NCBI GenBank assembly: GCA_022592435.1
Contig: JABYQS010000155.1
Span: 1 to 64,000 of the forward strand
Reading direction: 5' to 3'
Length of the DNA: 64,000 bases
Source of the DNA: Cerioporus squamosus
Taxonomy: Eukaryota; Basidiomycota; Agaricomycetes; Polyporales; Polyporaceae
Made by a program: the position numbers and the translations under genes. This document shows, piece after piece, positions 3,456 to 34,450 of the stretch; positions within the stretch are counted from its first letter, which is position 1; every line of letters starts with the position of its first letter. The notes beneath the pieces are model-generated. The model saw only the letters and a list, made by a program, of their open reading frames with translations. It did not search any database and was not told where the DNA came from.

Positions 3456-3457
3456 CG

Positions 3458-11628: not shown

Positions 11629-13904
11629 TCACGAAACATCCATCGCATCATCCGCATCCCCCGCGCCGCACGCACCCAGATCCAGGTCCACCTCCCCCGC
11701 CTCCGTCTGCGCGCGCGTATACAGCTCCTCGCGCTTGTTCTCGTCCGCGGTCAGGTTCGCGAGCACGAGCAGCGCCTCCGCCAGCAGCGGGCTCACGTCC
11801 TCCATCTGCGCCGCCTGCGCGCCCACGAGCGCCGGGGTGAGCTGCCCCTTCGCGCGCTCGAAGAAGGAGATCGCCATGGCAAGGCCCTCTCGCGCCTCCT
11901 CCGCCTCGGAGGAGTGCAGCACCTCGACGTCGCCCGCCTCAAGCGCGGACTCCATCTCCTCGACGGGGGCGGAGCCCATGACGAGCCAGCACCGGCCGCG
12001 CGCGCAGAGGATCGGGCCGCGCCACGCGTCCATGTCGGCCTCGTTCTTCATCTGGTTGAAGACAGAGTCCGCCCAGGACGCCCAGTAGTGCCGCTGTGCG
12101 CCGGAGCTGAGGCGCTCTGCAACGCCGAGCACCTCGCTTGCGATCGTGAAGAGCTCCTTCGGGCGGGAGAACATGACCAGCGGATCACTCGCGGTGGACG
12201 ATTGCGCGTATGGGGAGGCGTAGTGCGAGGGTGGGGCGTGCGTGCCGGAGAAGTAGCCGGATGTCTGCGAGGGAGAAGACGAGGTACCCGGGGTGTGGAT
12301 GAAGGATGGATTGTGTGTATGTGAGTACTGCGGGTGCGGCATGTGGAAGATCCCGCGCGAGAACTGGTCCATCGCGAGGACCATGATGTCGTGCGCGGAC
12401 GCCGAGTACAGCGACATGCGGCGGGTCACGGGAGGGCGGAACTGCGCGATGGCGTGGAAGGGTGACGAGGTCGGCCATTGAGGTTCGGCCATGGAGAACG
12501 GCGAGCCGGAGGGGTAGTAGCAGTAGTCGCTCTGCGAGGCCGAGGACGCCTCGGCCTGTGTCTTGGCCATCTTCATGCTGTAAGTCACCTTCTCGTCCGC
12601 GAGGCAGACGAGCGTGCGGCCCCATACGATCGCCATACGCCAATCCTCGGTCGTGTCAAGGTTGGTGCCACCCACGCGACTGGGGAGGTTCTCGCCCGTC
12701 TCGAAGACGTCAAGCGCGGCGAGCCAGTACGTCGAGGGAGCGTCCGGCTCACCGGGGAGGACGATCGACGGGTCCTGCGCGACGAGGTTTCCGATGAGGA
12801 AGAGGGCGATGCCGAAGATGGCGTGAAACGCGGTCGGGAGCTCCGTGTGTCTGTGACGGGTGTGTGAGCGCGATGAGGACCGTCACGGTCTATGCGCGAG
12901 GATGCGGGGACGCACCGATGAGAGACGGTCGTCGCGCGTCTGCGATGCCAGTGCGAAGAACCGGCGGAGTCAGCATCGGACCAATCGCGGTTGAGACGTT
13001 CGTCCGTGGGTGTGATCGCATCTGGGGAGCGGCTCGTGCGGTGCACTGGCACGTCGGCATACACCACGGACGGGTCGGGGTGGTCGAGGAGGAAGCGGTG
13101 GCATTCGCGGATGACGGCGCGCAGGAGCGGGATCGCTTCGGGGATGTCTTCTGCTGGACGGGGGACATCAGTCATGGTGCGGTCTGGGTCGCGCCTGGTC
13201 GCGCCTGGTCGCGCCTGGTCGCGCCTAGACGGGGACGCACCGTCGTAGCGCTCCGCGGCGCGGGCAAAGAGCTCCTTGAGGTTCTCCCAGTCCTCGTAGT
13301 CGGCGGAGCGCACGGCCTTGCCCTTGGAGGACGCGTCGGACGCGGTGGACGTGGAGGGTGCGCGGGAGATGGAGTCAGGAGACATGGCGTGGATAGCTAG
13401 GCGGACTGGCGGAAGAGGGATGCGTAGGGGCGCATTATATAGCAGATGGTCAGACAGCGGGGTGCACGAACCGCGACCGGATGTCGGGGACGATGTGAAG
13501 TCCGAGTCGGAGTCAAAGTGGCCAGAGAGGCGTCTGCGCTTGGAGGAGGCGGAGGAGGAGGAGCGGGCGTCGTCGACCTCGTCTTCGTCCTCGTGGGGGT
13601 GCACGGGGAGGTCCCTGTGGGAGCTCGCGGCCGAGGGCGATCGGAGATGGACGGAGGCTGGGGAGACGGCGCGAGAGGAGGCAGCTGATGGTGAGTGCCA
13701 GGAGGGGGAGACGGAGGAGGAGGACGACGATGCGCGCAGAAAGTCGGCTATGCGCTCGTGCGAAAGCAGTTCCTGATTCGGCCACGGGAACGACGGCGCG
13801 GCTTGGGTTGCGCGTGCCTGGTGCTGCCGCCAGAGACCGCGGGGCCGTTTGCGCGACGGGGCGGGCAGCGACGGGACGCGGGTGGGCGACATGCACGCGA
13901 GCAT
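11629..13904 (-). CDS. Probable ETT1/Nro1-family protein (enhancer of translation termination), complete copy
   Basis: ETT1/Nro1 proteins are all-helical nuclear/cytosolic factors linked to translation termination in yeast and to hypoxic Sre1/Ofd1 control in fission yeast. Family-like blocks on the minus strand are DYEDWENLKELFARAAERYD, then after an 87-base intron (13154-13240) EDIPEAIPLLRAVIRECHRF and LLDHPDPSVVY. After a second intron come FHAIFGIALFLIGNLVAQDP, STYWLAALDVFETGENLPSR and DWRMAIVWGRTLVCLADEKV. The last block is PLLAEALLVLANLTADENKR then EELYTRAQ near the stop at 11629. The N terminus is a long Ser-rich low-complexity region (KRPRGLWRQ, DEDEVDDARSSSSASSKRRR). The start at 13904 (MLACMSPTRV; alternative 13892) lies just downstream of a TATA box. 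The protein is longer than yeast Ett1. Family assignment is from memory of motifs and is moderate. Everything upstream of about 12565 also occurs in copies 2 and 3. Confidence 0.6.
13188..13227. repeat. Minisatellite, 4 x 10 bases, in ETT1-like intron (copy 1)
   Basis: GTCGCGCCTG is repeated four times, the last unit ending in A. It lies inside the intron 13154-13240 of the minus-strand gene. Confidence 0.9.
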
Positions 13905-13947
13905 GGAGACGTCGAGAGAGAGGGCGGACAGCCCAGCGCAGGACGTC

Positions 13948-13955
13948 GTATATAT
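13948..13955 (-). promoter_or_regulatory. TATA box of ETT1-like gene, copy 1
   Basis: GTATATAT reads as a TATA box on the minus strand, about 45-60 bases upstream of the candidate start codons at 13904 and 13892. The same box is present at 22559-22566 in copy 2 and 31151-31158 in copy 3. Confidence 0.55.
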
Positions 13956-16334
13956 CGTTCGGGGCAGCCCACAGCCAGACTGCGTCCATGCACTCGCAGA
14001 GCAGTCCAGGCCAGTCCCTCCTCCCATCGCCATCATCCCGCCCAGTCCAGCCCCGCACAATATCAGTCAACCACAGCCCAGCCTCCCAGTCCGCCGCGTG
14101 CCCCGGCGATTTCCCGCCTCGACCTAGCCACAGTGCGTAGCCGTAACCTCAATCAATGACCAATGACCAGCTGCACGCTACCTCCCGACGCAGCACAACC
14201 TCCCGGAGGACCTCAACCCTACCACGAGATGCGAAGCGTTCGCAAGCCACCGTCGCTCGCCACCCGCGTCTTCTCTTGACCTCCAGTCTCCTCGTTGCGC
14301 CTCTCTCACGCTCCTCACTCGACGCACCTCGCCGCCCACCCTTGACGATGCTCATTCGTCCACGGCTGCTTCCTCTCTCCTCCGCTCGCCGCTCGCCGCT
14401 CTCTGCCCGCTGTCATTCGCTGGACGTCTCCGCGGACTCTTCCCGCACGCGCGCACACCAGGTAGTAGTCCGCAGACACTGTATCTCGCGGTGTGCACTA
14501 TATTGCTGACGTGAGTCACAGCATCTGGTGCATGCATACACCCTGGTAACCCGACGTGAGATTCCTCCTCTCCGCGTTCTGGTGAGCAGATCTGTCATAT
14601 TCCCTGTTCCCAGACACACTCACGTCAGTACAGAAGCTATACGTCCGCTCCGCGACTGTATGCGCAACCGGAGGTGTCCGTGATAGCCATCCGGAACTCC
14701 TTTGCCGGTCGAGCATTCCTGCGCACCGCACCTCCTCACTCGGTCGCAACAAGTCACATCTCGCATTCACAGGACGCCGCTCACTCAAGACCGGGAACAT
14801 CTTCGCCGGTATGCGGCCACACCAGCCCGAGTCTGCTCATCTGGCTCCCGGAGCTCTCGCACAACCAGTCCCGCGACTTCGTCCTCGATCTCGCCCGTGC
14901 TCACTTCCCGCTAGAACATCGCTCACAGAGTCTATCCCATACAGTAAGCATCACGCGACCGACCGAGCGATCGAATCCCGCTCATCAGCAGTGCACTCAG
15001 CAGTACAGCATGTTCAGACGAGCCGGACGCAGTCAAGAATCACGTCTCTATCGTCGCCGTGCCTCTGCCACCGCCGCTTCAAGACTCGCGACGAGGTACG
15101 TTCCACATACGCAACGCTGCCGCTCCTCCACGCTCACAGTCTTCTGATACATGCCGGTCAGAGTGTCCGCTCACCTCGCACGCGTTCAAGCCTTCCGCGC
15201 GCAAGCGGCGATGATTCCAACGCCGTCGGCATGGGCTCAATCACAACGCACAATGTATGTCTCTCCCTGTGCGATCCGGGACGCGATACTGACACCGCTC
15301 TGTTCTTCTGACTAGCCCTTCACCATCCGCGCCATGCTGCGCCCTTCTTCCGACGCCGTCACCACTCGACACTCTCATCGCGCTATCGAACCCCTGCACA
15401 GAATCACGACGTCCCGTAGCCTGCGTCGACCTTGTGCGGCGTCCTCAAGCTCCGTCCTCAAGCTCGGGCTCGTGCTCATCGCACACGACGTCTGCGACGC
15501 GACCCCGGACAGTGCAGCACTCGACTAGCAAGACACAGGCTTACTGGCGTTCTCCAGACGTGCGTCCCTCGTGCTCGGGCTCGTGGTTCGTGTACTGAAC
15601 TGTCTGTTCATTCGTTTCGAATCTAGATTACGTGCATCACTGTCCTACGCCACGCTACGTCGCGGGAAGCTGGGCCAGTACATCCAATAGTTCGACGACC
15701 TGTCTGCTGACCTCCTCACGCATAGTCGGTTCTCATCGTGACTCGGGACAAGCGAGCGGTACCTGTCGACGGTCCACTGCACGAACGTGCACCGGCACGC
15801 GCAGGCACCATTTCGACGGCCCCGCAGCGCTGCCCAGAGCACACGCCGCAGCCCGAACTCGTTCGCCGTCGTCTCCGCCACCCCACCCACCAACTACGGC
15901 CAAGCCTGCACTCTCCCGGTTCCCGACGTCTCATCCGGCTCCGTGCATCGCGGTCGGGTGATGCGCCCCGTCTGTTTTCTCACACAGCGCACACAGAACC
16001 TCGCACAACCCCTCGGACTCGCTCGGTCAGTCCCTCGACTACGACTCGGACACTGGTAGCCGGGTCACTACTCGGACGCGGCTACGGCTCCGCGACGTCG
16101 CCTGCGGCGACGAGACACAAGCACTCGGTACGCCCACCGCGTTTGCGATCCCGTGGATCCGGGAGAGCAAGTCAGTACTATACAAGCACCCGCCGGGCCG
16201 TCGTTCGCGGGCTGACTTGCCGGATGGACCCCTACTTTGGGGTGAGTACATGCAGTCGACGCACATAGGAAGGTATGCTCACCCGCGCGAGCTGACATCC
16301 CTCCAGCGCGATCCTTGTTCGCACATGAACGCCG

Positions 16335-16850
16335 TCCCGAGCACTCGGGCTTCGACCGTCGCTGCGGTTGTCGTCTTCCAAGGCGAGTTCGCATACACGC
16401 AGGCGAGCATGGCTGGTGAACGACTTACCTGAACAGCGGACGTCTATTTACGACGCCGATTGCGTCCAAGTCTCGCGTGATCTGGGACGAGCGTCAGCGT
16501 GCACTCGACGAGGTGCCGGACAGAAGCCGAAGGACGTACCGAGAGACAGGGCCTCGGACGCGCCCGCAAATGTCGGGAACACCGTTCCTCCCCGTCCGCA
16601 TCCGAGCATGCGGGCTTTGATCGCTGCGGCGCACCAGGACCCTGAGATAAGTTCGCGTCCATGCAAGCGACGATGAACGGTGAGCGACTCACCTGTGCAG
16701 CGGACGTCACTGGTCCTCGAAGCCCGCCGGCGATGCGTCCGAGTCTCGCGCGGCCTGGGACGGGTGTTAGCATCCATGCAGTCTCGACGATGGGCAGGAG
16801 AGAAGACGGTACGTAGAAGCCAGTTCCGGACGCGTCTGCCGATGCGCGCA
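16335..16850. repeat. Two degenerate tandem repeats of about 264-273 bases in X (copy 1)
   Basis: Shared blocks recur at this spacing: CCGAGCAcTCGGGCTT-like, GTGAaCGACTtACCT followed by CAGCGGACGTC (16436 and 16700), and GCGTCCaAGTCTCGCG (about 16462 and 16735). The equivalent region in copy 2 is about 24946-25461. Confidence 0.6.
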
Positions 16851-17840
16851 AGGTATGTCAGCCGGCGATACGCGCAGACCGAGTTGGAGATCGCACGTGC
16901 TCACCTGATGTCGGTTCAGAGGTACGTCGCCAGCGGCCGGTGTCGGTCCTGCGGATCCGGGAGTGTCAGCGCGACGAAGACACGACGGCCAGCATGCATA
17001 CCTCGCCCATGCAGCGCTTCAAGCATCGTCGAAGCCGGGAGAGAGGGAGAAGCCTGGACTTGGAGGTGAGCAGGACGCACAGGCCGCCGGGAGACGATCG
17101 GCATACCGTAAGTAATGCTCATCGCAGTGGCACGCAGGGCATCGTCCTGGAAGAACGAACATCAGCGTCGTGCTACGATGCCAGGCTACGGACCGCGAAC
17201 TTACCTGTTGTGTCGCTGTCTTGCCACACAACGCACGAGCTACCTGCCAGACGGATCTTCTCAGTGCCCTGGATGGCTCGAAGCGCGAGACTCGGGAGCA
17301 CACTTACCCCTGCCACTGCATCGCACGTCGATATCCGAGCTGCAGCGCGTCGCGGCAGAGCCCGAACCAGGAGCCGGGAGCCGGGAGATGAGAGGTGGGG
17401 GGAGGGCAGACGGGGACATGACGCCTCACCCGCGCCTCTCTCAGCCTAAGTACGTCGGGAGCAGGGCCCCGGGTCCGTGCGCCCGCGTGCGTTGTTTGGT
17501 GACCGTGTCTGCGTCCGAGGAAGTGCGGGTCTACGCGTCGGCGGTGTTGCAGGGCATTCTCGGCCAGCGGTGGTGGCGGACAGTGAGTACGTACTACGTA
17601 CTCTTGCATGTTCGATCTCGGTCGGTTTCCTATCTCGTTGGCAGCTGACATCAGTCACGGCATGTGGGTCGGTAGACGTTGGAATAAATTTTGTACCTCT
17701 CTATCGCTGTGAGACTGAGATCATATGCCTTGAGCACAGTGTGTTGAGTGGCATGCACAGTCACTTCGAGGAGAGTAGGATGCTCTCGGGATCTGTGCGA
17801 CAACTCGGAGTCGGTGGCACGGGAGGTTCGAGCAGAGGTG

Positions 17841-17846
17841 TATAAA
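17841..17846 (+). promoter_or_regulatory. Possible TATA box in X
   Basis: TATAAA follows a GC-rich stretch and precedes the moderate-GC part of X that contains the relic coding region. It is repeated at 26452-26457 in copy 2. Promoter activity is only a guess. Confidence 0.25.
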
Positions 17847-18366
17847 GCTTCCGAGTCCGGTCTAACCCTGAGAGTCGCACTCACGGTATCCCGAGTAAGT
17901 ATCCTTGAATGATCAATATTCGGGGGGACCCTTGATCAGGGCAGCGTATCCGACATCGGAACAAAGCTTGGGATGTCTGCAACCAGGTAGAGACATGACC
18001 TCGGAGCTGGTCCTGGAAGTACTAGACTTGCCACAGAAAGCGACAGTTTGAATATACGAGAGGACTGGCATAAGCATTCATGCGGACACAAAGGAGGTGG
18101 GGACTCTCTCGAACGGGCGGAAGGTTTAACCGGGAAAAACGAGTGTTTGAATTTGGGAGTGCCACATTCCGGATGAGAGGAGGCCCGGGCATGGGCTCCC
18201 ACGAAGCCAGGTTTCATGTGGGCAGCGGCAGGCAAACAGGAACTTTGCAAGCATAATGGACCTCCTCCAACCGACATACAATTATCAAGCAAGCGTGTGC
18301 ATACAAGACCTTCAGTGTGTCTAGTAGGACACTTTACTGTGCGGCATCATATGAAGGATGATATGA

Positions 18367-18743
18367 GAAATATGGCAAGCGTGGCCGTGGTACTTCAATG
18401 TCCCTTTTGGGAACCTCAGCGACATCCCCGGCGGCCAGCAGTCGCTCCACTCCATCCTCATCACCCTGCATGTTGGGATCCTGCGCTTCGAGCCTGTTGA
18501 CAACGACTTTGCCGACCTCGCAACCCAAAAGCTGTCCTCCCCAGTGCGCCCATCACGCGGCCCGCGCCGTGGTGCTTCGGCCCATTCGGGACAGACCAGA
18601 TCGGAACGAGCATGAAGAATGCATGCTTTAACAGCCGCAGGGAGCCGAGACGGCGTGTGAAGGATGGCCCGAAGACCCCGAAGATGGTGCTGGACTCGGA
18701 CATTGAGGAGGACACTGAGGTCGAGAGTGATGTCGATGAGTAG
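18367..18743 (+). pseudogene. Relic coding stretch in X, family not recognised
   Basis: The frame from 18367 reads EIWQAWPWYFNVPFGNLSDI, then PGGQQSLHSILITLHVGILR and FEPVDNDFADLATQK before stopping at 18615. Its composition looks like a genuine protein. A second frame overlaps (TDQIGTSMKNACFNSRREP, then VKDGPKTPKMVLDSDIEEDT) and ends with an acidic tail at 18743. The two frames together look like the 3' end of a gene interrupted by a frameshift. No start codon or upstream exons were found. The same stretch is at 26978-27354 in copy 2. Confidence 0.35.
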
Positions 18744-19980
18744 CAGTGGTGGATCTCTTGTGTCAGGCAGTGGACGAAGGAGCAAATGGGTGTTCATGCC
18801 AATCTATTGGCCGCTGGTGGCGGTGTTGGCTTCCGATCTTGCGGTAGCGGGAGCTTCCGGTGCTGAGACGTTTCAACGGCGCTGTGCAGGCCATGCTACA
18901 TAGGTATACCAGTGTCTTGCTGTGTTGGTGCAGCAGCCGGCCAGCTGTTGCCCTGTAAGGCTGAATGCACCTCCCGGCCGATGACTGCATTGAAACTGAC
19001 CGTGTACGAACCTAGAAGCCAACCCTGCAGCCATGCACTATTCGGCTGCGACGACTGCGCGCAATGTCAGATTTAGCCGAATTGTGCAAGACACGCACGA
19101 CTGGTACACACCCTGTACTCCCTGCCACACTTGTAAGCCTCTTGAGACTGCGGACGGTCGCTGTAAACAAGTAAGATATGGCTATCGCAGTTTCTGGTAC
19201 CCGGAAAGCTGCTACTTACCTTCATAAATTGCCCCCAGAGAGAATACACTGGAAGCGACGCAACGCGTATGGGCCGATAAGCGTCAGGTACCACACTTGA
19301 ATTGGGATGTCAGAGTGCCCTGGGAGAGCTAGGAATTTGCCGTCTCCGACACATGAATGTTCGCGTTAACCGGACCAGAGGCACTGCGTGTTGCACCCCT
19401 TCCTTCCTCCCACCACAGTGCATTCTGGCTTCGCCGTTGCCCTCTGGACTCTCCCGGCATCTGCGCGTCCTTTGGACTCCCCGGACGCAGACATAGCACT
19501 GCAGAAGACCGTGTTAGGTGAGGGCACTGCGTAGGGTTGCATACTTGCATCGGGCAGCACTGCACAGTGTTATGCACTGCTGCACTTGCCGTTCGCACTA
19601 GATGCATCATGCGACGCGCGAAGACACGATGGAGGTGTGGAGACCCGCACTGCTGTCCCGGGACCGCATCGGACGCGTTACGCGTCCGTCAACGTGTCCT
19701 GACCAGTTCTCCGAGGTGAGCATACTTCCAGCTCGATAGAATGCATCCTCGTACCGTTTGCATGGCTGCCGGCCATGGTCAAAATCCTTGAGGCCCGAGC
19801 TTTTCATCCTGCGAGCCTTCTGCTCGACCTCGATGTCAGGTAACGAGTCGTCAGCTCGTCCCCCACACTGCTGTAAGCCAAGGCTGGCGACGATTTCTTT
19901 CGTCGTCCGGCACGCATTCTCGCGTTCCAGACGACATGCACGGACCCCGGAAGACCTCCATGGTACGAGATATGTCCTAG

Positions 19981-20029
19981 AGGTACGTCAGAGGCTTCGC
20001 TGCCCATATACGCTGCTGGCGACGTACCT
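19981..20029. repeat. Stem-loop with AGGTACGTC arms, X copy 1 (first)
   Basis: AGGTACGTC (19981-19989) pairs with GACGTACCT (20021-20029). The right arm read in reverse complement is AGGTACGTCGCCAG, a motif that also occurs directly at 16920-16933. Confidence 0.55.
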
Positions 20030-20289
20030 GACGACCTGACTTCGCCGCAGGACCTCTCCAGACAAGCCCGCGCATCCGAGACAGCGCTGGGTAGGTATGT
20101 GGCCGAGGAGACTCTCGGCTTGATTCAGGCGAGTCAGTACGGCACTCTGCACATCTGCGAACGACTTTGTAGGCTTACCAAGTCGATGTCAGTTCGGTTC
20201 TCAGCGTGTCTCTGCACCGGTTCAATTCCAACGCTCTGGGCAGTTTATAGGTCTCCCGGGAGTCCTGCGTGACTGTCAAGCATGCTGTA

Positions 20290-20350
20290 AGGTACGTCAG
20301 AGGCGTCCAGGCTCTCGTGTCCTCGTCTGGCGACGTACCTGACAGCCTCA
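20290..20350. repeat. Stem-loop with AGGTACGTC arms, X copy 1 (second)
   Basis: This is the same arm pair as at 19981, with a different loop: AGGTACGTC (20290-20298) and GACGTACCT (20342-20350). Both stem-loops recur in copy 2 near 28591 and 28901. Confidence 0.55.
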
Positions 20351-21000
20351 GCTGATCTGCAACATCCAGAGCTCTCGGTCCCGCTCCACGGCTTTCGAGG
20401 TGCTCGGGTACCTGAGAGCAAGAGGAAAGGCCCCGGGTAAGTCAGTGCAACATGCAGCACGTCGAGAGCAACACATACTTACCAGTTCAACAGTCAACCT
20501 TCGCCCCGCGCCAGGTGCGTGTTGGTGGGCATCTAGCGGCCCGAAACGGACGTTGCTACCAGTTCAGCTCCGCAGGTGTCTGCGGATGGAAAGCGGCGAG
20601 CCTCCGCAGTGGTCTTCCCTCGGGCACGCGAGTATGTTGCCGGCTCTTCCGGGGCACCGAGCGCGATATCGGAGGTCTTCAAAGCGTGTATTCCAAGCTT
20701 CTGGGCGACGGAGGTCTGCTGCGGGAGAGTGAAGTCTTCAGCGGGCGCGCACAGCTCTCGGAACGGCGCAAGAGTTCTCAGGCATGTGGGCAACGAGATC
20801 TGCTATGGGGCGTATACGAAGGCGGGAGAGCGCAATTTCCGGAACACGGTAACGCGCGCGGTAGTTGTATCATAGCGAGTCTCACCATGGCTCTCCCTGT
20901 ACGTCCGAGTGTCTGCTCAGTGACATTTCCTGTACAATCCCTGTAGCTCTGTAAACCACCTCCCTGCTCCCGACCGCGCTCCCCACCCCCTCCCATCTCC

Positions 21001-22503
21001 CTACCGTGATTCTGCTGAGTCCCGTCCTATTTCCGGTCGAGCTACTCCCCCACTGCGCGCCTCACTCCGCTGCGCCCACCCAGCCACGAGGCTACCAAAC
21101 ACCCACTCGGCTGCTCGCGGAGAACGAAATATATTCGCGTGCGCTATGTACACGGCGAGACAGTCCTTGCGCGCCTCGGCCATCTTCATGCTGTAAGTCA
21201 CCTTCTCGTCCGCGAGGCAGACGAGCGTGCGGCCCCATACGATCGCCATACGCCAATCCTCGGTCGTGTCAAGGTTGGTGCCACCCACGCGACTGGGGAG
21301 GTTCTCGCCCGTCTCGAAGACGTCAAGCGCGGCGAGCCAGTACGTCGAGGGAGCGTCCGGCTCACCGGGGAGGACGATCGACGGGTCCTGCGCGACGAGG
21401 TTTCCGATGAGGAAGAGGGCGATGCCGAAGATGGCGTGAAACGCGGTCGGGAGCTCCGTGTGTCTGTGACGGGTGTGTGAGCGCGATGAGGACCGTCACG
21501 GTCTATGCGCGAGGATGCGGGGACGCACCGATGAGAGACGGTCGTCGCGCGTCTGCGATGCCAGTGCGAAGAACCGGCGGAGTCAGCATCGGACCAATCG
21601 CGGTTGAGACGTTCGTCCGTGGGTGTGATCGCATCTGGGGAGCGGCTCGTGCGGTGCACTGGCACGTCGGCATACACCACGGACGGGTCGGGGTGGTCGA
21701 GGAGGAAGCGGTGGCATTCGCGGATGACGGCGCGCAGGAGCGGGATCGCTTCGGGGATGTCTTCTGCTGGACGGGGGACATCAGTCATGGTGCGGTCTGG
21801 GTCGCGCCTGGTCGCGCCTGGTCGCGCCTGGTCGCGCCTAGACGGGGACGCACCGTCGTAGCGCTCCGCGGCGCGGGCAAAGAGCTCCTTGAGGTTCTCC
21901 CAGTCCTCGTAGTCGGCGGAGCGCACGGCCTTGCCCTTGGAGGACGCGTCGGACGCGGTGGACGTGGAGGGTGCGCGGGAGATGGAGTCAGGAGACATGG
22001 CGTGGATAGCTAGGCGGACTGGCGGAAGAGGGATGCGTAGGGCGCATTATATAGCAGATGGTCAGACAGCGGGGTGCACGAACCGCGACCGGATGTCGGG
22101 GACGATGTGAAGTCCGAGTCGGAGTCAAAGTGGCCAGAGAGGCGTCTGCGCTTGGAGGAGGCGGAGGAGGAGGAGCGGGCGTCGTCGACCTCGTCTTCGT
22201 CCTCGTGGGGTGCACGGGGAGGTCCCTGTGGGAGCTCGCGGCCGAGGGCGATCGGAGATGGACGGAGGCTGGGGAGACGGCGCGAGAGGAGGCAGCTGAT
22301 GGTGAGTGCCAGGAGGGGGAGACGGAGGAGGAGGACGACGATGCGCGCAGAAAGTCGGCTATGCGCTCGTGCGAAAGCAGTTCCTGATTCGGCCACGGGA
22401 ACGACGGCGCGGCTTGGGTTGCGCGTGCCTGGTGCTGCCGCCAGAGACCGCGGGGCCGTTTGCGCGACGGGGCGGGCAGCGACGGGACGCGGGTGGGCGA
22501 CAT
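21001..22503 (-). pseudogene. ETT1-like gene copy 2: truncated, fused to X tail, frame broken
   Basis: The copy contains the promoter, the N-terminal region and the middle of the ETT1-like gene. At 21177 it runs into X, where the frame continues after SMKMA as EARKDCLAVYIAHANIFRSP and stops at 21001, so the C-terminal half is missing. Compared with copies 1 and 3, one G is missing in the run near 22041 and one in the run near 22208, which disrupts the Ser-rich N-terminal frame. It can therefore make neither the full protein nor the intact chimera. Confidence 0.75.
21801..21840. repeat. Minisatellite, 4 x 10 bases, copy 2
   Basis: The same four-unit GTCGCGCCTG array as in copy 1. Confidence 0.9.
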
Positions 22504-22861
22504 GCACGCGAGCATGGAGACGTCGAGAGAGAGGGCGGACAGCCCAGCGCAGGACGTCGTATATATCGTTCGGGGCAGCCCACAGCCAGACTGCGTCCAT
22601 GCACTCGCAGAGCAGTCCAGGCCAGTCCCTCCTCCCATCGCCATCATCCCGCCCAGTCCAGCCCCGCACAATATCAGTCAACCACAGCCCAGCCTCCCAG
22701 TCCGCCGCGTGCCCCGGCGATTTCCCGCCTCGACCTAGCCACAGTGCGTAGCCGTAACCTCAATCAATGACCAATGACCAGCTGCACGCTACCTCCCGAC
22801 GCAGCACAACCTCCCGGAGGACCTCAACCCTACCACGAGATGCGAAGCGTTCGCAAGCCAC

Positions 22862-25800
22862 CGTCGCTCGCCACCCGCGTCTTCTCTTGACCTCCAGTCT
22901 CCTCGTTGCGCCTCTCTCACGCTCCTCACTCGACGCACCTCGCCGCCCACCCTTGACGATGCTCATTCGTCCACGGCTGCTTCCTCTCTCCTCCGCTCGC
23001 CGCTCGCCGCTCTCTGCCCGCTGTCATTCGCTGGACGTCTCCGCGGACTCTTCCCGCACGCGCGCACACCAGGTAGTAGTCCGCAGACACTGTATCTCGC
23101 GGTGTGCACTATATTGCTGACGTGAGTCACAGCATCTGGTGCATGCATACACCCTGGTAACCCGACGTGAGATTCCTCCTCTCCGCGTTCTGGTGAGCAG
23201 ATCTGTCATATTCCCTGTTCCCAGACACACTCACGTCAGTACAGAAGCTATACGTCCGCTCCGCGACTGTATGCGCAACCGGAGGTGTCCGTGATAGCCA
23301 TCCGGAACTCCTTTGCCGGTCGAGCATTCCTGCGCACCGCACCTCCTCACTCGGTCGCAACAAGTCACATCTCGCATTCACAGGACGCCGCTCACTCAAG
23401 ACCGGGAACATCTTCGCCGGTATGCGGCCACACCAGCCCGAGTCTGCTCATCTGGCTCCCGGAGCTCTCGCACAACCAGTCCCGCGACTTCGTCCTCGAT
23501 CTCGCCCGTGCTCACTTCCCGCTAGAACATCGCTCACAGAGTCTATCCCATACAGTAAGCATCACGCGACCGACCGAGCGATCGAATCCCGCTCATCAGC
23601 AGTGCACTCAGCAGTACAGCATGTTCAGACGAGCCGGACGCAGTCAAGAATCACGTCTCTATCGTCGCCGTGCCTCTGCCACCGCCGCTTCAAGACTCGC
23701 GACGAGGTACGTTCCACATACGCAACGCTGCCGCTCCTCCACGCTCACAGTCTTCTGATACATGCCGGTCAGAGTGTCCGCTCACCTCGCACGCGTTCAA
23801 GCCTTCCGCGCGCAAGCGGCGATGATTCCAACGCCGTCGGCATGGGCTCAATCACAACGCACAATGTATGTCTCTCCCTGTGCGATCCGGGACGCGATAC
23901 TGACACCGCTCTGTTCTTCTGACTAGCCCTTCACCATCCGCGCCATGCTGCGCCCTTCTTCCGACGCCGTCACCACTCGACACTCTCATCGCGCTATCGA
24001 ACCCCTGCACAGAATCACGACGTCCCGTAGCCTGCGTCGACCTTGTGCGGCGTCCTCAAGCTCCGTCCTCAAGCTCGGGCTCGTGCTCATCGCACACGAC
24101 GTCTGCGACGCGACCCCGGACAGTGCAGCACTCGACTAGCAAGACACAGGCTTACTGGCGTTCTCCAGACGTGCGTCCCTCGTGCTCGGGCTCGTGGTTC
24201 GTGTACTGAACTGTCTGTTCATTCGTTTCGAATCTAGATTACGTGCATCACTGTCCTACGCCACGCTACGTCGCGGGAAGCTGGGCCAGTACATCCAATA
24301 GTTCGACGACCTGTCTGCTGACCTCCTCACGCATAGTCGGTTCTCATCGTGACTCGGGACAAGCGAGCGGTACCTGTCGACGGTCCACTGCACGAACGTG
24401 CACCGGCACGCGCAGGCACCATTTCGACGGCCCCGCAGCGCTGCCCAGAGCACACGCCGCAGCCCGAACTCGTTCGCCGTCGTCTCCGCCACCCCACCCA
24501 CCAACTACGGCCAAGCCTGCACTCTCCCGGTTCCCGACGTCTCATCCGGCTCCGTGCATCGCGGTCGGGTGATGCGCCCCGTCTGTTTTCTCACACAGCG
24601 CACACAGAACCTCGCACAACCCCTCGGACTCGCTCGGTCAGTCCCTCGACTACGACTCGGACACTGGTAGCCGGGTCACTACTCGGACGCGGCTACGGCT
24701 CCGCGACGTCGCCTGCGGCGACGAGACACAAGCACTCGGTACGCCCACCGCGTTTGCGATCCCGTGGATCCGGGAGAGCAAGTCAGTACTATACAAGCAC
24801 CCGCCGGGCCGTCGTTCGCGGGCTGACTTGCCGGATGGACCCCTACTTTGGGGTGAGTACATGCAGTCGACGCACATAGGAAGGTATGCTCACCCGCGCG
24901 AGCTGACATCCCTCCAGCGCGATCCTTGTTCGCACATGAACGCCGTCCCGAGCACTCGGGCTTCGACCGTCGCTGCGGTTGTCGTCTTCCAAGGCGAGTT
25001 CGCATACACGCAGGCGAGCATGGCTGGTGAACGACTTACCTGAACAGCGGACGTCTATTTACGACGCCGATTGCGTCCAAGTCTCGCGTGATCTGGGACG
25101 AGCGTCAGCGTGCACTCGACGAGGTGCCGGACAGAAGCCGAAGGACGTACCGAGAGACAGGGCCTCGGACGCGCCCGCAAATGTCGGGAACACCGTTCCT
25201 CCCCGTCCGCATCCGAGCATGCGGGCTTTGATCGCTGCGGCGCACCAGGACCCTGAGATAAGTTCGCGTCCATGCAAGCGACGATGAACGGTGAGCGACT
25301 CACCTGTGCAGCGGACGTCACTGGTCCTCGAAGCCCGCCGGCGATGCGTCCGAGTCTCGCGCGGCCTGGGACGGGTGTTAGCATCCATGCAGTCTCGACG
25401 ATGGGCAGGAGAGAAGACGGTACGTAGAAGCCAGTTCCGGACGCGTCTGCCGATGCGCGCAAGGTATGTCAGCCGGCGATACGCGCAGACCGAGTTGGAG
25501 ATCGCACGTGCTCACCTGATGTCGGTTCAGAGGTACGTCGCCAGCGGCCGGTGTCGGTCCTGCGGATCCGGGAGTGTCAGCGCGACGAAGACACGACGGC
25601 CAGCATGCATACCTCGCCCATGCAGCGCTTCAAGCATCGTCGAAGCCGGGAGAGAGGGAGAAGCCTGGACTTGGAGGTGAGCAGGACGCACAGGCCGCCG
25701 GGAGACGATCGGCATACCGTAAGTAATGCTCATCGCAGTGGCACGCAGGGCATCGTCCTGGAAGAACGAACATCAGCGTCGTGCTACGATGCCAGGCTAC

Positions 25801-28800
25801 GGACCGCGAACTTACCTGTTGTGTCGCTGTCTTGCCACACAACGCACGAGCTACCTGCCAGACGGATCTTCTCAGTGCCCTGGATGGCTCGAAGCGCGAG
25901 ACTCGGGAGCACACTTACCCCTGCCACTGCATCGCACGTCGATATCCGAGCTGCAGCGCGTCGCGGCAGAGCCCGAACCAGGAGCCGGGAGCCGGGAGAT
26001 GAGAGGTGGGGGGAGGGCAGACGGGGACATGACGCCTCACCCGCGCCTCTCTCAGCCTAAGTACGTCGGGAGCAGGGCCCCGGGTCCGTGCGCCCGCGTG
26101 CGTTGTTTGGTGACCGTGTCTGCGTCCGAGGAAGTGCGGGTCTACGCGTCGGCGGTGTTGCAGGGCATTCTCGGCCAGCGGTGGTGGCGGACAGTGAGTA
26201 CGTACTACGTACTCTTGCATGTTCGATCTCGGTCGGTTTCCTATCTCGTTGGCAGCTGACATCAGTCACGGCATGTGGGTCGGTAGACGTTGGAATAAAT
26301 TTTGTACCTCTCTATCGCTGTGAGACTGAGATCATATGCCTTGAGCACAGTGTGTTGAGTGGCATGCACAGTCACTTCGAGGAGAGTAGGATGCTCTCGG
26401 GATCTGTGCGACAACTCGGAGTCGGTGGCACGGGAGGTTCGAGCAGAGGTGTATAAAGCTTCCGAGTCCGGTCTAACCCTGAGAGTCGCACTCACGGTAT
26501 CCCGAGTAAGTATCCTTGAATGATCAATATTCGGGGGGACCCTTGATCAGGGCAGCGTATCCGACATCGGAACAAAGCTTGGGATGTCTGCAACCAGGTA
26601 GAGACATGACCTCGGAGCTGGTCCTGGAAGTACTAGACTTGCCACAGAAAGCGACAGTTTGAATATACGAGAGGACTGGCATAAGCATTCATGCGGACAC
26701 AAAGGAGGTGGGGACTCTCTCGAACGGGCGGAAGGTTTAACCGGGAAAAACGAGTGTTTGAATTTGGGAGTGCCACATTCCGGATGAGAGGAGGCCCGGG
26801 CATGGGCTCCCACGAAGCCAGGTTTCATGTGGGCAGCGGCAGGCAAACAGGAACTTTGCAAGCATAATGGACCTCCTCCAACCGACATACAATTATCAAG
26901 CAAGCGTGTGCATACAAGACCTTCAGTGTGTCTAGTAGGACACTTTACTGTGCGGCATCATATGAAGGATGATATGAGAAATATGGCAAGCGTGGCCGTG
27001 GTACTTCAATGTCCCTTTTGGGAACCTCAGCGACATCCCCGGCGGCCAGCAGTCGCTCCACTCCATCCTCATCACCCTGCATGTTGGGATCCTGCGCTTC
27101 GAGCCTGTTGACAACGACTTTGCCGACCTCGCAACCCAAAAGCTGTCCTCCCCAGTGCGCCCATCACGCGGCCCGCGCCGTGGTGCTTCGGCCCATTCGG
27201 GACAGACCAGATCGGAACGAGCATGAAGAATGCATGCTTTAACAGCCGCAGGGAGCCGAGACGGCGTGTGAAGGATGGCCCGAAGACCCCGAAGATGGTG
27301 CTGGACTCGGACATTGAGGAGGACACTGAGGTCGAGAGTGATGTCGATGAGTAGCAGTGGTGGATCTCTTGTGTCAGGCAGTGGACGAAGGAGCAAATGG
27401 GTGTTCATGCCAATCTATTGGCCGCTGGTGGCGGTGTTGGCTTCCGATCTTGCGGTAGCGGGAGCTTCCGGTGCTGAGACGTTTCAACGGCGCTGTGCAG
27501 GCCATGCTACATAGGTATACCAGTGTCTTGCTGTGTTGGTGCAGCAGCCGGCCAGCTGTTGCCCTGTAAGGCTGAATGCACCTCCCGGCCGATGACTGCA
27601 TTGAAACTGACCGTGTACGAACCTAGAAGCCAACCCTGCAGCCATGCACTATTCGGCTGCGACGACTGCGCGCAATGTCAGATTTAGCCGAATTGTGCAA
27701 GACACGCACGACTGGTACACACCCTGTACTCCCTGCCACACTTGTAAGCCTCTTGAGACTGCGGACGGTCGCTGTAAACAAGTAAGATATGGCTATCGCA
27801 GTTTCTGGTACCCGGAAAGCTGCTACTTACCTTCATAAATTGCCCCCAGAGAGAATACACTGGAAGCGACGCAACGCGTATGGGCCGATAAGCGTCAGGT
27901 ACCACACTTGAATTGGGATGTCAGAGTGCCCTGGGAGAGCTAGGAATTTGCCGTCTCCGACACATGAATGTTCGCGTTAACCGGACCAGAGGCACTGCGT
28001 GTTGCACCCCTTCCTTCCTCCCACCACAGTGCATTCTGGCTTCGCCGTTGCCCTCTGGACTCTCCCGGCATCTGCGCGTCCTTTGGACTCCCCGGACGCA
28101 GACATAGCACTGCAGAAGACCGTGTTAGGTGAGGGCACTGCGTAGGGTTGCATACTTGCATCGGGCAGCACTGCACAGTGTTATGCACTGCTGCACTTGC
28201 CGTTCGCACTAGATGCATCATGCGACGCGCGAAGACACGATGGAGGTGTGGAGACCCGCACTGCTGTCCCGGGACCGCATCGGACGCGTTACGCGTCCGT
28301 CAACGTGTCCTGACCAGTTCTCCGAGGTGAGCATACTTCCAGCTCGATAGAATGCATCCTCGTACCGTTTGCATGGCTGCCGGCCATGGTCAAAATCCTT
28401 GAGGCCCGAGCTTTTCATCCTGCGAGCCTTCTGCTCGACCTCGATGTCAGGTAACGAGTCGTCAGCTCGTCCCCCACACTGCTGTAAGCCAAGGCTGGCA
28501 ACGATTTCTTTCGTCGTCCGGCACGCATTCTCGCGTTCCAGACGACTTGCACGGACCCCGGAAGACCTCCATGGTACAAGATATGTCCTAGAGGTACGTC
28601 AGAGGCTTCGCTGCCCATATACGCTGCTGGCGACGTACCTGACGACCTGACTTCGCCGCAGGACCTCTCCAGACAAGCCCGCGCATCCGAGACAGCGCTG
28701 GGTAGGTATGTGGCCGAGGAGACTCTCGGCTTGATTCAGGCGAGTCAGTACGACACTCTGCACATCTGCGAACGACTTTGTAGGCTTACCAAGTCGATGT

Positions 28801-29610
28801 CAGTTTGGTTCTCAGCGTGTCTCTGCACCGGTTCAATTCCAACGCTCTGGGCAGTTTATAGGTCTCCCGGGAGTCCTGCGTGACTGTCAAGCATGCTATA
28901 AGGTACGTCAGAGGCGTCCAGGCTCTCGTGTCCTCGTCTGGCGACGTACCTGACAGCCTCAGCTGATCTGCAACGTCCAGAGCTCTCGGTCCCGCTCCAC
29001 GGCTTTCGAGGTGCTCGGGTACCTGAGAGCAAGAAGAAAGGCCCCGGGTAAGTCAGTGCAACATGCAGCACGTCGAGAGCAACACGTACTTACCAGTTCA
29101 ACAGTCAACCTTCGCCCGCGCCAGGTGCGTGTTGGTGGGCATCTAGCGGCCCGAAACGGACGTTGCTACCAGTTCAGCTCCGCAGGTGTCTGTGGATGGA
29201 AAGCGGCGAGCCTCCGCAGTGGTCTTCCCTCGGGCACGCGGGTATGTTGCCGGCTCTTCCGGGGCACCGAGCGCGATATCGGAGGTCTTCAAAGCGTGTA
29301 TCCCAAGCTTCTGGGCGACGGAGGTCTGCTGCGGGACAGTGAAGTCTTCAGCGGGCGCGCACAGCTCTCGGAACGGCGCAAGAGTTCTCAGGCATGTGGG
29401 CAATGAGATCTGCTATGGGGCGTATACGAAGGCGGGAGAGCGCAATTTCCGGAACACGGTAACGAGCGCGGTAGTTGTATCATAGCGAGTCTCACCATGG
29501 CTCTCCCTGTACGTCCGAGTGTCTGCTCAGTGACATTTCCTGTACAATCCCTGTAGCTCTGTAAACCACCTCCCTGCTCCCTACCGCGCTCCCCACCCCC
29601 TCCCATCTCC
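22862..29610. other. Region X, copy 2
   Basis: Content is as for X copy 1, offset by about 8611. The part up to about 28.5 kb looks identical. From about 28.5 to 29.79 kb scattered substitutions appear, for example near 28500, 28547, 28578, 28752, 28804 and 28898. Confidence 0.7.
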
Positions 29611-31095
29611 CTACCGTGATTCTGCTGAGTCCCGTCCTATTTCCGGTCGAGCTACTCCCCCACTGCGCGCCTCACTCCGCTGCGCCCACCCAGCCACGAG
29701 GCTACCAAACACCCACTCGGCTGCTCGCGGAGAACGAAATATATTCGCGTGCGCTATGTACACGGCGAGACAGTCCTTGCGCGCCTTGGCCATCTTCATG
29801 CTGTAAGTCACCTTCTCGTCCGCGAGGCAGACGAGCGTGCGGCCCCATACGATCGCCATACGCCAATCCTCGGTCGTGTCAAGATTGGTGCCACCCACGC
29901 GACTGGGGAGGTTCTCGCCCGTCTCGAAGACGTCAAGCGCGGCGAGCCAGTACGTCGAGGGAGCGTCCGGCTCACCGGGGAGGACGATTGACGGGTCCTG
30001 CGCGACGAGGTTTCCCATGAGGAAGAGGGCGATGCCGAAGATGGCGTGAAACGCGGTCGGGAGCTCCGTGTGTCTGTGACGGGTGTGTGAGCGCGATGGG
30101 GACCGACACGGTCTATGCGCGAGGATGCGGGGACGCACCGATGAGAGACGGTCGTCGCGCGTCTGCGATGCCAGTGCGAAGAACCGGCGGAGTCAGCATC
30201 GGACCAATCGCGGTTGAGACGTTCGTCCGTGGGTGTGATCGCATCTGGGGAGCGGCTCGTGCGGTGCACTGGCACGTCGGCATACACCACGGACGGGTCG
30301 GGGTGGTCGAGGAGGAAGCGGTGGCATTCGCGGATGACGGCGCGCAGGAGCGGGATCGCTTCGGGGATGTCTTCTGCTGGACGGGGGACATCAGTCATGG
30401 TGCGGTCTGGGTCGCGCCTGGTCGCGCCTAGACGGGGACGCACCGTCGTAGCGCTCCGCGGCGCGGGCAAAGAGCTCCTTGAGGTTCTCCCAGTCCTCGT
30501 AGTCGGCGGAGCGCACGGCCTTGCCCTTGGAGGACGCGTCGGACGCGGTGGACGTGGAGGGTGCGCGGGAGATGGAGTTGGGAGACATGGCGTGGATAGC
30601 TAGGCGGACTGGCGGAAGAGGGATGCGTAGGGGCGCATTATATAGCAGATGGTCAGACAGCGGGGTGCACGAACCGGGACCGGATGTCGGGGACGATGTG
30701 AAGTCCGAGTCGGAGTCAAAGTGGCCAGAGAGGCGTCTGCGCTTGGAGGAGGCGGAGGAGGAGGAGCGGGCGTCGTCGACCTCGTCTTCGTCCTCGTGGG
30801 GGTGCGCGGAGAGGTCCCTGTGGGAGCTCGCGGCCGAGGGCGATCGGAGATGGACGGAGGCTGGGGAGACGGCGCGAGAGGAGGCAGCTGATGGTGAGTG
30901 CCAGGAGGGGGAGACGGAGGAGGAGGACGACGATGCGCGCAGAAAGTCGGCTATGCGCTCGTGCGAAAGCAGTTCCTGATTCGGCCACGGGAACGACGGC
31001 GCGGCTTGGGTTGCGCGTGCCTGGTGCTGCCGCCAGAGACCGCGGGGCCGTTTGCGCGACGGGGCGGGCAGCGACGGGACGGGCGTGGGCGACAT
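29611..31095 (-). CDS. ETT1-like gene copy 3: truncated chimera with X-derived tail
   Basis: The frame from the start at 31095 (MSPTPVPSLPAPSRKR) through the acidic and Ser-rich region and the helical blocks is open when the 67-base intron is removed. It includes FHAIFGIALFLMGNLVAQDP and DWRMAIVWGRTLVCLADEKV. It then passes the unit boundary at 29788 into the tail KARKDCLAVYIAHANIFRSP, and stops at 29611. About half of the conserved domain, including the EELYTRAQ end, is replaced by roughly 57 X-encoded residues. The TATA box at 31151-31158 and unique upstream DNA are retained, so it could be transcribed. Whether it yields a stable or dominant-negative protein is unknown. Confidence 0.5.
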
Positions 31096-31475
31096 GCACG
31101 CGAGCATGGAGACGTCGAGAGAGAGGGCGGACAGCCCAGCGCAGGACGTCGTATATATCGTTCGGGGCAGCCCACAGCCAGACTGCGTCCATGCACTCGC
31201 AGAGCAGTCCAGGCCAGTCCCTCCTCCCATCGCCATCATCCCGCCCAGTCCAGCCCCGCACAATATCAGTCAACCACAGCCCAGCCTCGAGTCCGCCTCC
31301 GTCCGTCCCATCCCTGCCCGCGCTTGTCCCCGGCCTCGACCTAGCCACAGTGCGTAGCCGTAACCTCAATCAATGACCAATGACCAGCTGCACGCGACCT
31401 CCCGACGCAGCACAACCTCCCGGAAGAGCTCAACCCTACCACGAGATGCGCAGCGTTCGCAAGCACCCCCTCGCA
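29788..31475. repeat. Partial third copy of the unit (ETT1-like 5' half only)
   Basis: The copy repeats only the ETT1-like 5' half and its promoter. Similarity to copies 1 and 2 stops near GCGTTCGCAAGC (about 31470), after a stretch of smaller differences from 31290. It has about a dozen substitutions relative to copy 2. Beyond it the sequence is unique, not X. Confidence 0.9.
30411..30430. repeat. Minisatellite, 2 x 10 bases, copy 3
   Basis: Only two GTCGCGCCTG units are present. The intron is therefore 20 bases shorter (67 instead of 87), so it can no longer be read through in frame. Confidence 0.9.
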
Positions 31476-32246
31476 GCCCGCGACCTGGGAACTTCCCCCA
31501 TCTCCCAATGAGACCCATCATCCAATCGTCGCCTTTGCAGCGTCGATACCGCGGCCATCTCTCTCTTCGAACATCACACCTCCGCGACTTGCTACGCGCT
31601 CATGGCAAGATGTTCCTCAACAGCCCCTTCCCAACGCCACTGAGCAGCGACGGCGTTCACGGCATCCGTGAGCCTTCTGAGCCGGTGCGCGAACGTCCGA
31701 TCCGCTCTCCCACTTGTGCCGGGCCCTCCTGTGGGACTCGGGGTGGCGGGAAGACGAGAAAAAGTGTCCGGTTGACGGGCTACGTGTTCAGAGAAGCCCG
31801 CTGACGGCCGCGGATTCACAACGCGAGCCAATCAGGGAGAGGTGCGCTGATACCGAGAAGTGAACGCAAGTGTCCATTGAACATTCGGACTTGGCAAGCA
31901 GAAGCGCAGAGGTGACGTGCTTACTGGCGAGGCCGTAAGAATCGCATGTGTCCCGGCACTGGGGGCAACAGCGCTACATGTCACTTGCCATGAACGCAGC
32001 ATTCCTCCGGGTCCGATTCCTACAGCGTGGAGTGTGCTCATTGTGGCATGAGATAGCTCGGACGCTGGCTCTTCGTGTGTCGAAATGTCATCCGGGTCAT
32101 CACATGCGAGTGGCCACCGGTCAGTCGCAGTGCTCCCGAGGAGGATGGGTCGGTGGCCCCGGGAGCTCAACGTGCCCGATATCTCCCAAGCTTACGAATT
32201 TAGCCTCGTTGCTGATACATCGCAGCGACGTACCATATACATCGTA
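31476..32246. other. Intergenic between ETT1-like copy 3 and the TIR element
   Basis: About 770 bases that presumably include the ancestral upstream region of the ETT1-like gene. I saw no convincing coding frame or RNA gene. The last part matches the 3' flank of the second reductase gene (GCGACGTACCATATAC here, GCGACGTACCGTATGC near 37277). Confidence 0.5.
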
Positions 32247-32651
32247 AGGTAGGCCCAGCACAGACTCGACTACGTCATGTGATCGAAATCTGTCACGCTG
32301 GGTCGGGTTTGGCTGGGCCGCGACAATGGAATTCAAACTTGAATGCAGGTAGCCACCAATCGCAAAATCCGGAACCAGCAGTCGATAGCGAAAGTGCTTT
32401 TTGACATTATTGTGGTTCTTGATTTTTAATGGAGGGCGTTGACCGAGAGCCTATCGAAAAGTTTGCACTGGCGCTTGGTTTCTTTGAGGCATTTCCGCAC
32501 CGCGCGCGTCGACAAGTCTGGTAGGCGCTGCCAGGAAAGGCAGTGAAAGCCGGTTGCAGACCCTAGAATCGTTCTACAGGTTCGATGCACGTGAGGGGTC
32601 ACGGGCGCGTCACACCATCACGACGTAGTCGAGTCTGTGCTGGGCCTACCT
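32247..32651. mobile_element. TIR element (MITE) with TA target duplication, 405 bases
   Basis: The ends are inverted repeats of about 30 bases beginning AGGTAGGCCCAGCACAGACT on each strand, nearly perfect. TA flanks both sides (32245-32246 and 32652-32653), as for Tc1/mariner-type insertions. The interior (32340-32580) is AT-richer than its surroundings and has no transposase frame, so the element is non-autonomous. It sits just beyond the stop of the reductase gene at 32700. Confidence 0.75.
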
Positions 32652-32699
32652 TATCATCATGAACAAAATATATGCCATGTCCCTCGAAGCGCCGCCTAG

Positions 32700-34376
32700 T
32701 CACAGCTGTGGCCTGGCACTGGCCCCCTCCCTGTGCCTGCGCAGAGCCTGGTTCTGAACGACGAGCAGCAGCGCATACAGCGTCTCCATCCTCTGCCCCA
32801 GACAACACAGTGGCTGTCAGTGCCTAGGTCACGTAGGACGAAACGGCACTCACCGGCATATCCACCCCCGCCCTCCGCCCCATCCTCACGACCTCCCCAA
32901 CAACATGCTCGACCTCCATCGGCCGCCCGGCCTGGACGTCCACCAGCATGCTCGGCAGGTGCTTGCTGTCCGGCCGCGCGTGGATCCGCGCCGTGTTCAG
33001 CAGCGTCTTGTACGCCACGTCCGCGTCGATACCGTCCACGCGTCGATCCGGATCCTCCGGGGACGCAAACACCGCCTGGCCGAGCGCAGACAGCTCCTGC
33101 AGCGCGTCGTACAGCAGCGGGACCGTGTACTGCCCGAGCGCAGGCGCCGCACGCGGCACGTCCGCCGTCCGCCTCTCGCTTTCGCTCTCCGTCTGCGGCT
33201 CGTTCTCCGACCGTCCCCCCTCCCTCCGCCCCAGCCGCGCTTGAGTTTGGGAGCTCTCCCCAGGGTACGAGTCGACGTGACCGGGCTCGCACTCTAGGGG
33301 GCGGAAGAACGCCCTCAGCGACTCCCGCGCGAGCGCCGCGGACGCGCCCAGCACGGCGTTCCACATGTTCTTCGCAAACTTGACGCGCTGGATCTCGGGC
33401 ACGACCGTCACCTCGCTCCCGCCCTCGCGCAGGAGCGCCGCGAGCTCCTCGAGGAGCGCGGCTTCCGCTGGCGTGTTCTCCGCGGCGGCGACGTTCGTGC
33501 GGCGGTAGATGCCCATCGACACGCGGTCCTGTATGTGCGCCGTGATGCGCGGATGGTGAGTAAGCGCACAAGTTACAGCGGGCCAGCAGATGGCTCGAGA
33601 GGAGGAGTACTGACAAAGTCGTTGTGCTCGACGACGTTCTTCTCGACGAGGTTCGTCCCGATCCACACCCCCGTGCTCACGATGCGCGGCTCCTCGTCGG
33701 GCTTCAGCGTCTTGAGCGCGTCGTACAGATCCGTCTCGACGCCCAAACCGTTCTGCATGAGCACATACGTCGGCTGCGGGTGCTCGTTCGCGTACGGGGC
33801 GGAGAGCAGGGGCGCCAGGAGGGCGGGGGCCCGCTGGAGCTCCGGGATCGCCTTCGTCGTGAGGAAGACGTAGGCGTACGGCCGATCGAGTGCGTCCGAG
33901 AGCCTCGGGAGCACTGCACGCGTTTGGAGCACGGTCGGTCAGTCCGTCGCTACCGCAGCAGATGTGTATGAAATTGATGCGGACGTACGCCGGTCAGGCC
34001 GCCATCCCTGGATGTTCCCGTACTTGCCGCTCCAAAAGTCCATTCCGTGGGCTATATCGCAGGGGAGAGAACGACTCGTGAGTCAGCAACGTGAAGTACT
34101 AGCGGGAGAAGGAGAATCCCGGATGCTCTGCCCAGGACAACACCGACCGTTTGCAACCGCGTAGTTGCTTCGCGCGACCACGGACACGCGCGCACGGCCG
34201 CTTCTCTTCAAGATCAGCGAGTCTGGTGGTGGTTATCGCGGTCATCCGCGGGTGCGGGGTGGCCTCGCACGCGTCAGCCTTCCATCTCTCGCAGGCTAAG
34301 CCAGATGGACAAACATACATATCGCACCCACGGCACCGTAGCCGACGAGCAGGACGTCCTTGCAATGGGAGGACAT
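32700..34376 (-). CDS. 2-dehydropantoate 2-reductase (ketopantoate reductase), copy 1
   Basis: ApbA/PanE-family NADPH-dependent reductase, which in the classical pathway converts ketopantoate to pantoate for coenzyme A synthesis. The minus strand starts MSSHCKDVLLVGYGAVGAI, carrying the N-terminal GxGAxG nucleotide-binding motif. It continues SLILKRSGRARVSVVARSNY, HGMDFWSGKYGNIQGWRPDR, ALDRPYAYVFLTTKAIPELQ, TYVLMQNGLGVETDLYDALK and PRIVSTGVWIGTNLVEKNVV. The C-terminal ApbA domain follows: VPEIQRVKFAKNMWNAVLGA, LLNTARIHARPDSKHLPSML, VQAGRPMEVEHVVGEVVRMG and RMETLYALLLVVQNQALRR, with the stop at 32700-32702. About six short introns are present and no frame breaks. A Ser/Glu/Arg-rich insertion (ESERRTADVP region) lies in the C domain, as in the second copy. 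It is paralogous to 37347-39009. Fungi often have several family members, so the physiological substrate is not certain. Confidence 0.88.
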
Positions 34377-34450
34377 GATGTTCGTGTCCAACGTTTATGG
34401 CCCGAGCGCCCGAGGTTGTTGACGCGACATACTACTTAAACGCCCTTTCC

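Follow-up and report, generated by a model that had tools for sequence, protein, structure and literature searches.

Tandem arrays evolve by unequal crossover and gene conversion, and among mobile elements Helitrons are recognized by a 3' CTRR terminus with a hairpin, an A/T target and a Rep-helicase or a relation to one. According to excerpts of the respective papers, alternative transposition of Ac/Ds in maize yields tandem direct duplications (PMC3744419), Helitrons form circles and mobilize host flanking DNA by reading through one end (PMC4778049), and the 17-kb region B of the wine yeast Zygosaccharomyces bailii occurs as multi-copy insertions, for which circular integration was argued and tandem integration with re-excision proposed (PMC3053389). 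Here we analyzed a 64,000-nucleotide stretch of the Cerioporus squamosus genome (assembly GCA_022592435.1, contig JABYQS010000155.1, positions 1 to 64,000 of the forward strand; hereafter the window), in which an ETT1/Nro1-like gene adjoins a tandem array built from a 1.7-kb host segment, b, and a 6.9-kb spacer, X. X belongs to a genomic repeat family whose members lie, at three loci, between directly repeated host segments that are unrelated from locus to locus. Among the papers listed by literature searches, nothing on X-like arrays in polypores appeared, which does not prove that there are none.

Layout of the array and integrity of the ETT1-like gene

Comparison of the window with itself gave a direct match of 12562-22879 to 21175-31482 (99.2% identity over 10,335 columns) and another of 12562-14268 to 29785-31482 (96.3%), both too strong for chance. 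The order is A-b1-X1-b2-X2-b3-C, i.e., A-[b-X]-[b-X]-b-C, in agreement with a first-pass annotation of this DNA, which had read it as 3' half of the gene, 5' half, X, 5' half, X, 5' half and upstream DNA. A (11629..12561, minus strand) is the 3' part of the gene, from codon ~218 to the stop, and residues 119-527 of the predicted product, P0001, lie on 12858-11632. It is contiguous with b1 (12562..14268, minus strand), which carries the promoter side together with codons 1 to ~217. X1 (14269..21174, plus strand), delimited by the self-comparison, is followed by b2 (21175..22879, minus strand), a second 5' part that reads into the right end of X1, then by X2 (22880..29784, plus strand) and by b3 (29785..31482, minus strand), the third 5' part and the most diverged one in the window contig. 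Beyond the array, b3 adjoins the upstream flank, C (31483..39000, no strand assigned), which also stands beside the last b of the other haplotype. Both junctions from X into b read GCGCGCCT(C/T)GGCCATC, as the first-pass claim of matching unit junctions had stated. The promoter-side end of b is blurred: b1 and b2 differ from b3 by indels and substitutions across the last ~280 bases, and the continuations of b into X and into C are unrelated from ~14268 and ~31482 on.

The gene had initially been described as interrupted. Since A and b1 are contiguous and together encode the entire 527-residue P0001 (start codon at 13385 and stop codon at 11629), the ETT1-like gene is whole, and b2 and b3 are additional 5' parts. 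P0001 is 99% identical to the hypothetical protein C8T65DRAFT_760617 of Cerioporus squamosus. It has 335 homologs; the 120 listed share 44-99% identity with it, and four of those 120 are annotated with PF12753, which we take to be the Pfam family of Nro1/ETT1 proteins. The window's own frames, that of the ETT1-like protein included, gave no Pfam match at E<=0.1; homology to the PF12753 proteins indicates that the gene in b probably belongs to the ETT1/Nro1 family.

X and its right end at three loci

Queries from X found relatives on contigs C545 and C60 of the same genome, and a query from its right end found four places on C80 and three on C479, 8-10 kb apart, plus C545. A conserved right-end block lies at 21011..21152 in X1 and 29621..29762 in X2 (both plus strand); that of X1 is 82% identical to its C80/C479 counterparts and ~80% to that of C545. 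Counting the window contig (C63) and the two contigs of the other haplotype (C713 and C775), the block occurs at 12 places: four in C80, three in C479, two in C63 and one each in C713, C775 and C545. Short islands of 68-89% identity align C80:1-9000 colinearly with window X between ~16.2 and 21.15 kb. In the 6 kb of C60 examined, the only thing in common with X is a gene of the 194-residue family discussed below, and the right-end motif has no match on that contig.

The three loci are homologous over the last 1 kb of X, with local-alignment z-scores (60 shuffles each, in two-base blocks) of 51.5, 32.6 and 31.8, while the host segments of C63 and C80 show no detectable homology (z 1.4). Right-end homology between C63 and C80 extends to 22 (C63) and 13 (C80) bases from the host junctions, and that of C545 to 3 bases from its own host junction. 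A left-side stretch of C545, in which the true left end is not included, scored 1.7 against C63 and 5.0 against C80. The right-end motif CCAGCCACGAGGCTACCAA occurs 19 times with at most two mismatches, 12 of them in X arrays (11 exact, one with a single mismatch), and the reversed control pattern has no occurrence. Judging from these alignments, the right end of X is near-fixed, 3 to 22 bases from the host junctions at three loci, and not exact. Seven further occurrences of the motif lie outside the X arrays, six with two mismatches and one, at C31:22193, with one; the latter may be a further X locus.

At the second locus, the repeat unit of C80 and C479 includes 1.9 kb (unit coordinates 2872-4807) with part of an HbrB-like gene (PF08539, E 3e-31). 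Nine copies were located, four in C80, four in C479 and one in C213, and all nine match both HbrB domain parts and are stop-free inside. The unit match begins at coordinate 2872, right after the X right end, in both contigs concerned (C479 and C213), and in both C479 and C80 the last copy stops at 4807; by analogy with ETT1, the 2872 side was taken as the presumptive gene side of the array. Spacers here measure ~6.3-8.4 kb, judged from the spacings. C213 was considered as an empty site and rejected, since this contig stops within the repeat, at 35104, and is the start of an array. The units of C80 and C479 (L042, L045-L055) are block mosaics: most 300-base bins are >90% identical, and others, at 77-88%, lie between bins above 95%, as though shuffling had mixed at least two diverged versions. 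Compared with unit 1 of C80, three of the eight other copies differ by 10, 9 and 15 non-synonymous versus 3, 2 and 5 synonymous codons over the stop-to-stop frame, which probably includes some intron or non-coding sequence; the same copies differ at only 1, 1 and 2 codons within the first exon of HbrB. The C80/C479 matches, lying 8-10 kb apart, had suggested ribosomal DNA (rDNA) or extrachromosomal rDNA, which was rejected because Rfam gave no match at the gathering score in the window and three further stretches (L036, L042 and L043).

At the third locus, the stretch next to the right end of X, C545:181000-182637, has a second copy 11.2 kb away at 192223-193893 (96% identity), with a further repeated piece of 53 bases 620 bases beyond. 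In each of the two copies (180257-181620 and 191479-192844), exon-like matches cover residues 1-336 of P0130, a protein assigned as 3-ketodihydrosphingosine-reductase-like on the names of its homologs; a part of the matches cross stops, probably introns. On these matches, the whole reductase-like gene is duplicated around X, with an X-family spacer of at most ~8.8 kb by the spacings. A full gene copy is shown to be kept at two of the three X loci. The far C545 copy has 620 extra bases (C545:193894-194513) between the 53-base piece and the rest. In Lentinus tigrinus, three reductase paralogs (P0131, P0132 and P0134) stand on one contig of 215,602 bases, and linked reductase copies may therefore exist in Lentinus too.

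The near-fixed right end, the three unrelated targets and the direct repeats of host DNA together suggest an element that duplicates a long target segment upon insertion. We give an even chance to the reading that X is element-like and inserted with kilobase-scale target duplication, and that recombination among the b copies then altered the arrays. In the case of ETT1, X would have come to lie, through a past event, between duplicates of the 1.7-kb b, giving A-b-X-b-C; the gene would have stayed whole as A plus b1, and the second 5' part would have been left upstream beside C. We infer that it was X that moved and that its insertion duplicated the host segment, either because the two ends of X became attached to sister copies of the target, at positions separated by ~1.7-1.9 kb or more, or because a replication fork switched from target to X and back to target.

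Alternatively, break repair might have duplicated b in tandem while template switching captured a repetitive segment, X, at the junction, so that X would be filler and not an element. A single event with two template switches would give A-b-X-b-C, X holds no Pfam domain, and the A side shares short sequence similarity with the junction from X into b. Random capture, however, would hardly stop within ~76 bases of one X position at three loci, and it would not be expected to leave spacers of the X family with similar lengths at every locus (6.9 kb at ETT1, ~6.3-8.4 kb at the HbrB locus and at most ~8.8 kb in C545). We therefore regard filler capture as improbable.

Unit number in the two haplotypes

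Contigs C713 (14,357 bp) and C775 (12,982 bp) represent the other haplotype, their flanks differing from those of the window by 1.1% (left) and 1.4% (right). C713 has the structure A-b-X-b(partial) and C775 X(tail)-b-C, and their 2.6-kb overlap shows one mismatch and 11 gap openings scattered along it. On the simplest reading, the other haplotype carries one X unit across these two overlapping contigs; each ends inside the repeat, and this reading joins both, no single contig spanning the unit. The array therefore occurs in both haplotypes, beyond the window contig alone.

Within the window, X1 and X2 show no substitution in 5193 positions (14269-19461), nor do b1 and b2 in 1423. Units 1 and 2 remain substitution-free for ~7.3 kb, after which unit 1 changes to the sequence of the other haplotype: the X1 tail has 0/1709 substitutions against that haplotype and 16/1712 against X2, the 16 falling beyond ~28500 in X2. 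Likewise b1, which is joined to the haplotype A flank, has 0/1426 substitutions against the last b of the other haplotype (haplotype B), whereas the allelic b1 copies of the two haplotypes differ at 16/1426. Identity of non-allelic copies alongside divergence of allelic ones favors unequal recombination between b copies, and the 0/1426 tract points to a probable out-of-register exchange.

The second X copy in the window contig is not secure, recent unequal exchange and a haplotype-switched assembly being about evenly matched as its source. In the latter case, the contig would run from haplotype A into the X tail and b of haplotype B and then back to A, and there would really be one unit in each haplotype. 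The absence of substitutions between X1 and X2, the switch of the X1 tail to haplotype B and the fact that C713 and C775 both stop inside the repeat are all in keeping with this. Yet a b1 that sits on the haplotype A flank and equals the last b of haplotype B suggests a real exchange, and the HbrB arrays, with at least three diverged units, demonstrate that multi-unit arrays exist. We place an assembly product slightly below an even chance; it would leave the single-unit structure untouched.

The first-pass annotation had explained the layout by single-crossover integration of a circle of b plus X. In such a scenario, a [b+X] circle, single or dimeric, entered A-b-C by one crossover in b. This yields the exact array layout, with the gene restored between direct copies of b, and near-identical junctions from X into b; integration of circular DNA has been argued in wine yeast, with tandem integration and re-excision suggested, in excerpts of PMC3053389. 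The scenario nevertheless presupposes that b and X were already joined at both ends, which leaves the first joining unexplained, and it requires the same course of events at each of three different host segments. Unequal exchange also accounts for unit number without a circle: since recombination between b copies suffices to change it, a circle is possible and not needed. Taken together, we consider origin by circle integration unlikely. In the favored reading of insertion with target duplication, changes in unit number and homogenization of b would have come later, by out-of-register homologous recombination between b copies, and a [b-X] circle could be a by-product or a vehicle of that later step.

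Content of X

No Pfam domain was found in six frames of X, and Rfam was negative as described above. No transfer RNA gene was found in 11000-33000. The right-end block was rejected as a structured RNA, with z-scores of -0.78 to 0.77 in six of six folds. X1 had no match in a plasmid collection, a weak test since its records are mostly bacterial, and plasmid origin was set aside. X had been proposed as DNA foreign to this locus (a circle, a plasmid-like element or captured DNA); X is indeed not limited to the locus, but it is a genomic repeat family, with no match in that collection.

X1 contains a relic of a polypore gene family at 18378..18743 (plus strand), 84% identical in DNA to an open copy in C545. 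The relic is frameshifted and 7 bases shorter than the open copy, the same 7 bases being concerned in X1, X2 and the other haplotype. The open copy (L036:5182-5703) encodes P0121, a 194-residue protein with an acidic tail, for which eight other family members were found; three of these carry the name Trametes versicolor. P0121 had no Pfam match and no match in PDB at E<=1, and its AlphaFold model (mean predicted local distance difference test, pLDDT, 65; predicted template modeling score, pTM, 0.52) is too weak for a fold search. Among viral contigs, 10 pattern matches to the 194-residue family were obtained, and none was confirmed as a relative.

Comparison with known elements

Several observations weigh against insertion of an element with target duplication. 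Pfam recognized no transposase in X, none of the 19 inverted repeat pairs joins the two X ends, and there is no short target duplication at X, its flanks being kilobase repeats. The right end is inexact, in that C545 homology stops 76 (C63) and 63 (C80) bases inside the right ends, and the left end appears unconserved, the first 1 kb of X having no detectable homology between C63 and C80 (z 1.7). No empty-site allele was found among this genome's matches to left-flank, right-flank and b queries, so A-b-C is a presumed ancestral state. The X copies are old and degenerate, so that they show no movement. Moreover, the host segments differ in kind (the ETT1 5' part, an HbrB-domain part, and a whole gene plus flank at C545), and with three loci only, their similar size and orientation may be due to chance.

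Long terminal repeat (LTR) retrotransposons do not fit, since the repeats flanking X are host-gene DNA and Pfam found no gag-pol domain in its six frames. Helitrons resemble the behavior proposed for X in forming circles and in mobilizing host flanks by read-through, on the evidence of excerpts of PMC4778049. At the right end of X, inspection by eye found no CTRR terminus or A/T site, the block gave no structure signal and Pfam no enzyme domain; because a non-autonomous Helitron would be enzyme-free anyway, the Helitron negative rests on the X ends. Ac/Ds is similar in that tandem duplication of host DNA comes directly from the transposon reaction, but its junctions carry 8-bp target duplications (excerpts of PMC3744419), whereas X had no inverted-repeat ends or transposase that we could find. 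Region B of the wine yeast likewise consists of multi-copy insertions in a fungus; in the excerpted account, these are circular permutations with breakpoints of little or no similarity (PMC3053389), unlike X, with its near-fixed right end and host DNA duplicated at each locus. Arrays shaped by unequal crossover show the same copy-number differences between haplotypes and homogenized b copies, yet that process leaves a common spacer family at unrelated genes unexplained.

A bolder proposal, tentative and on balance rather doubtful, is that X marks an undescribed class of fungal mobile element. Such an element would insert by duplicating a target segment of at least 1.7 kb and leave the host gene intact; homologous exchange would then amplify arrays of gene segment plus element, and gene parts (the ETT1 5' part and the HbrB-domain part) would be left behind as extra open copies with their own upstream DNA. 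If kilobase target duplication is real, X would integrate in a gene-sparing way that differs from the transposon classes considered above, and tandem amplification of gene parts (ETT1-like and HbrB-like), as well as of an entire reductase gene of the sphingolipid type, would recurrently arise from it. If it is not, there are still three unrelated loci with a common spacer family and nearly one breakpoint.

Other features of the window

An insertion of ~410 bp at 32245-32653 has 35-bp terminal inverted repeats and TA at its site, and is absent from the other haplotype (C775, ~3797). It is probably a polymorphic element resembling a miniature inverted-repeat transposable element, and eight further near-full places plus a partial one were found among the matches listed in the genome. 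The C flank also carries two tandem ketopantoate-reductase-like genes (32710-34370 and 37351-38997), both with PF08546 and 73% identical in DNA. Farther on, an inverted repeat pair (43141-43887 and 49928-50679) is 80% identical, its arms ~6 kb apart.

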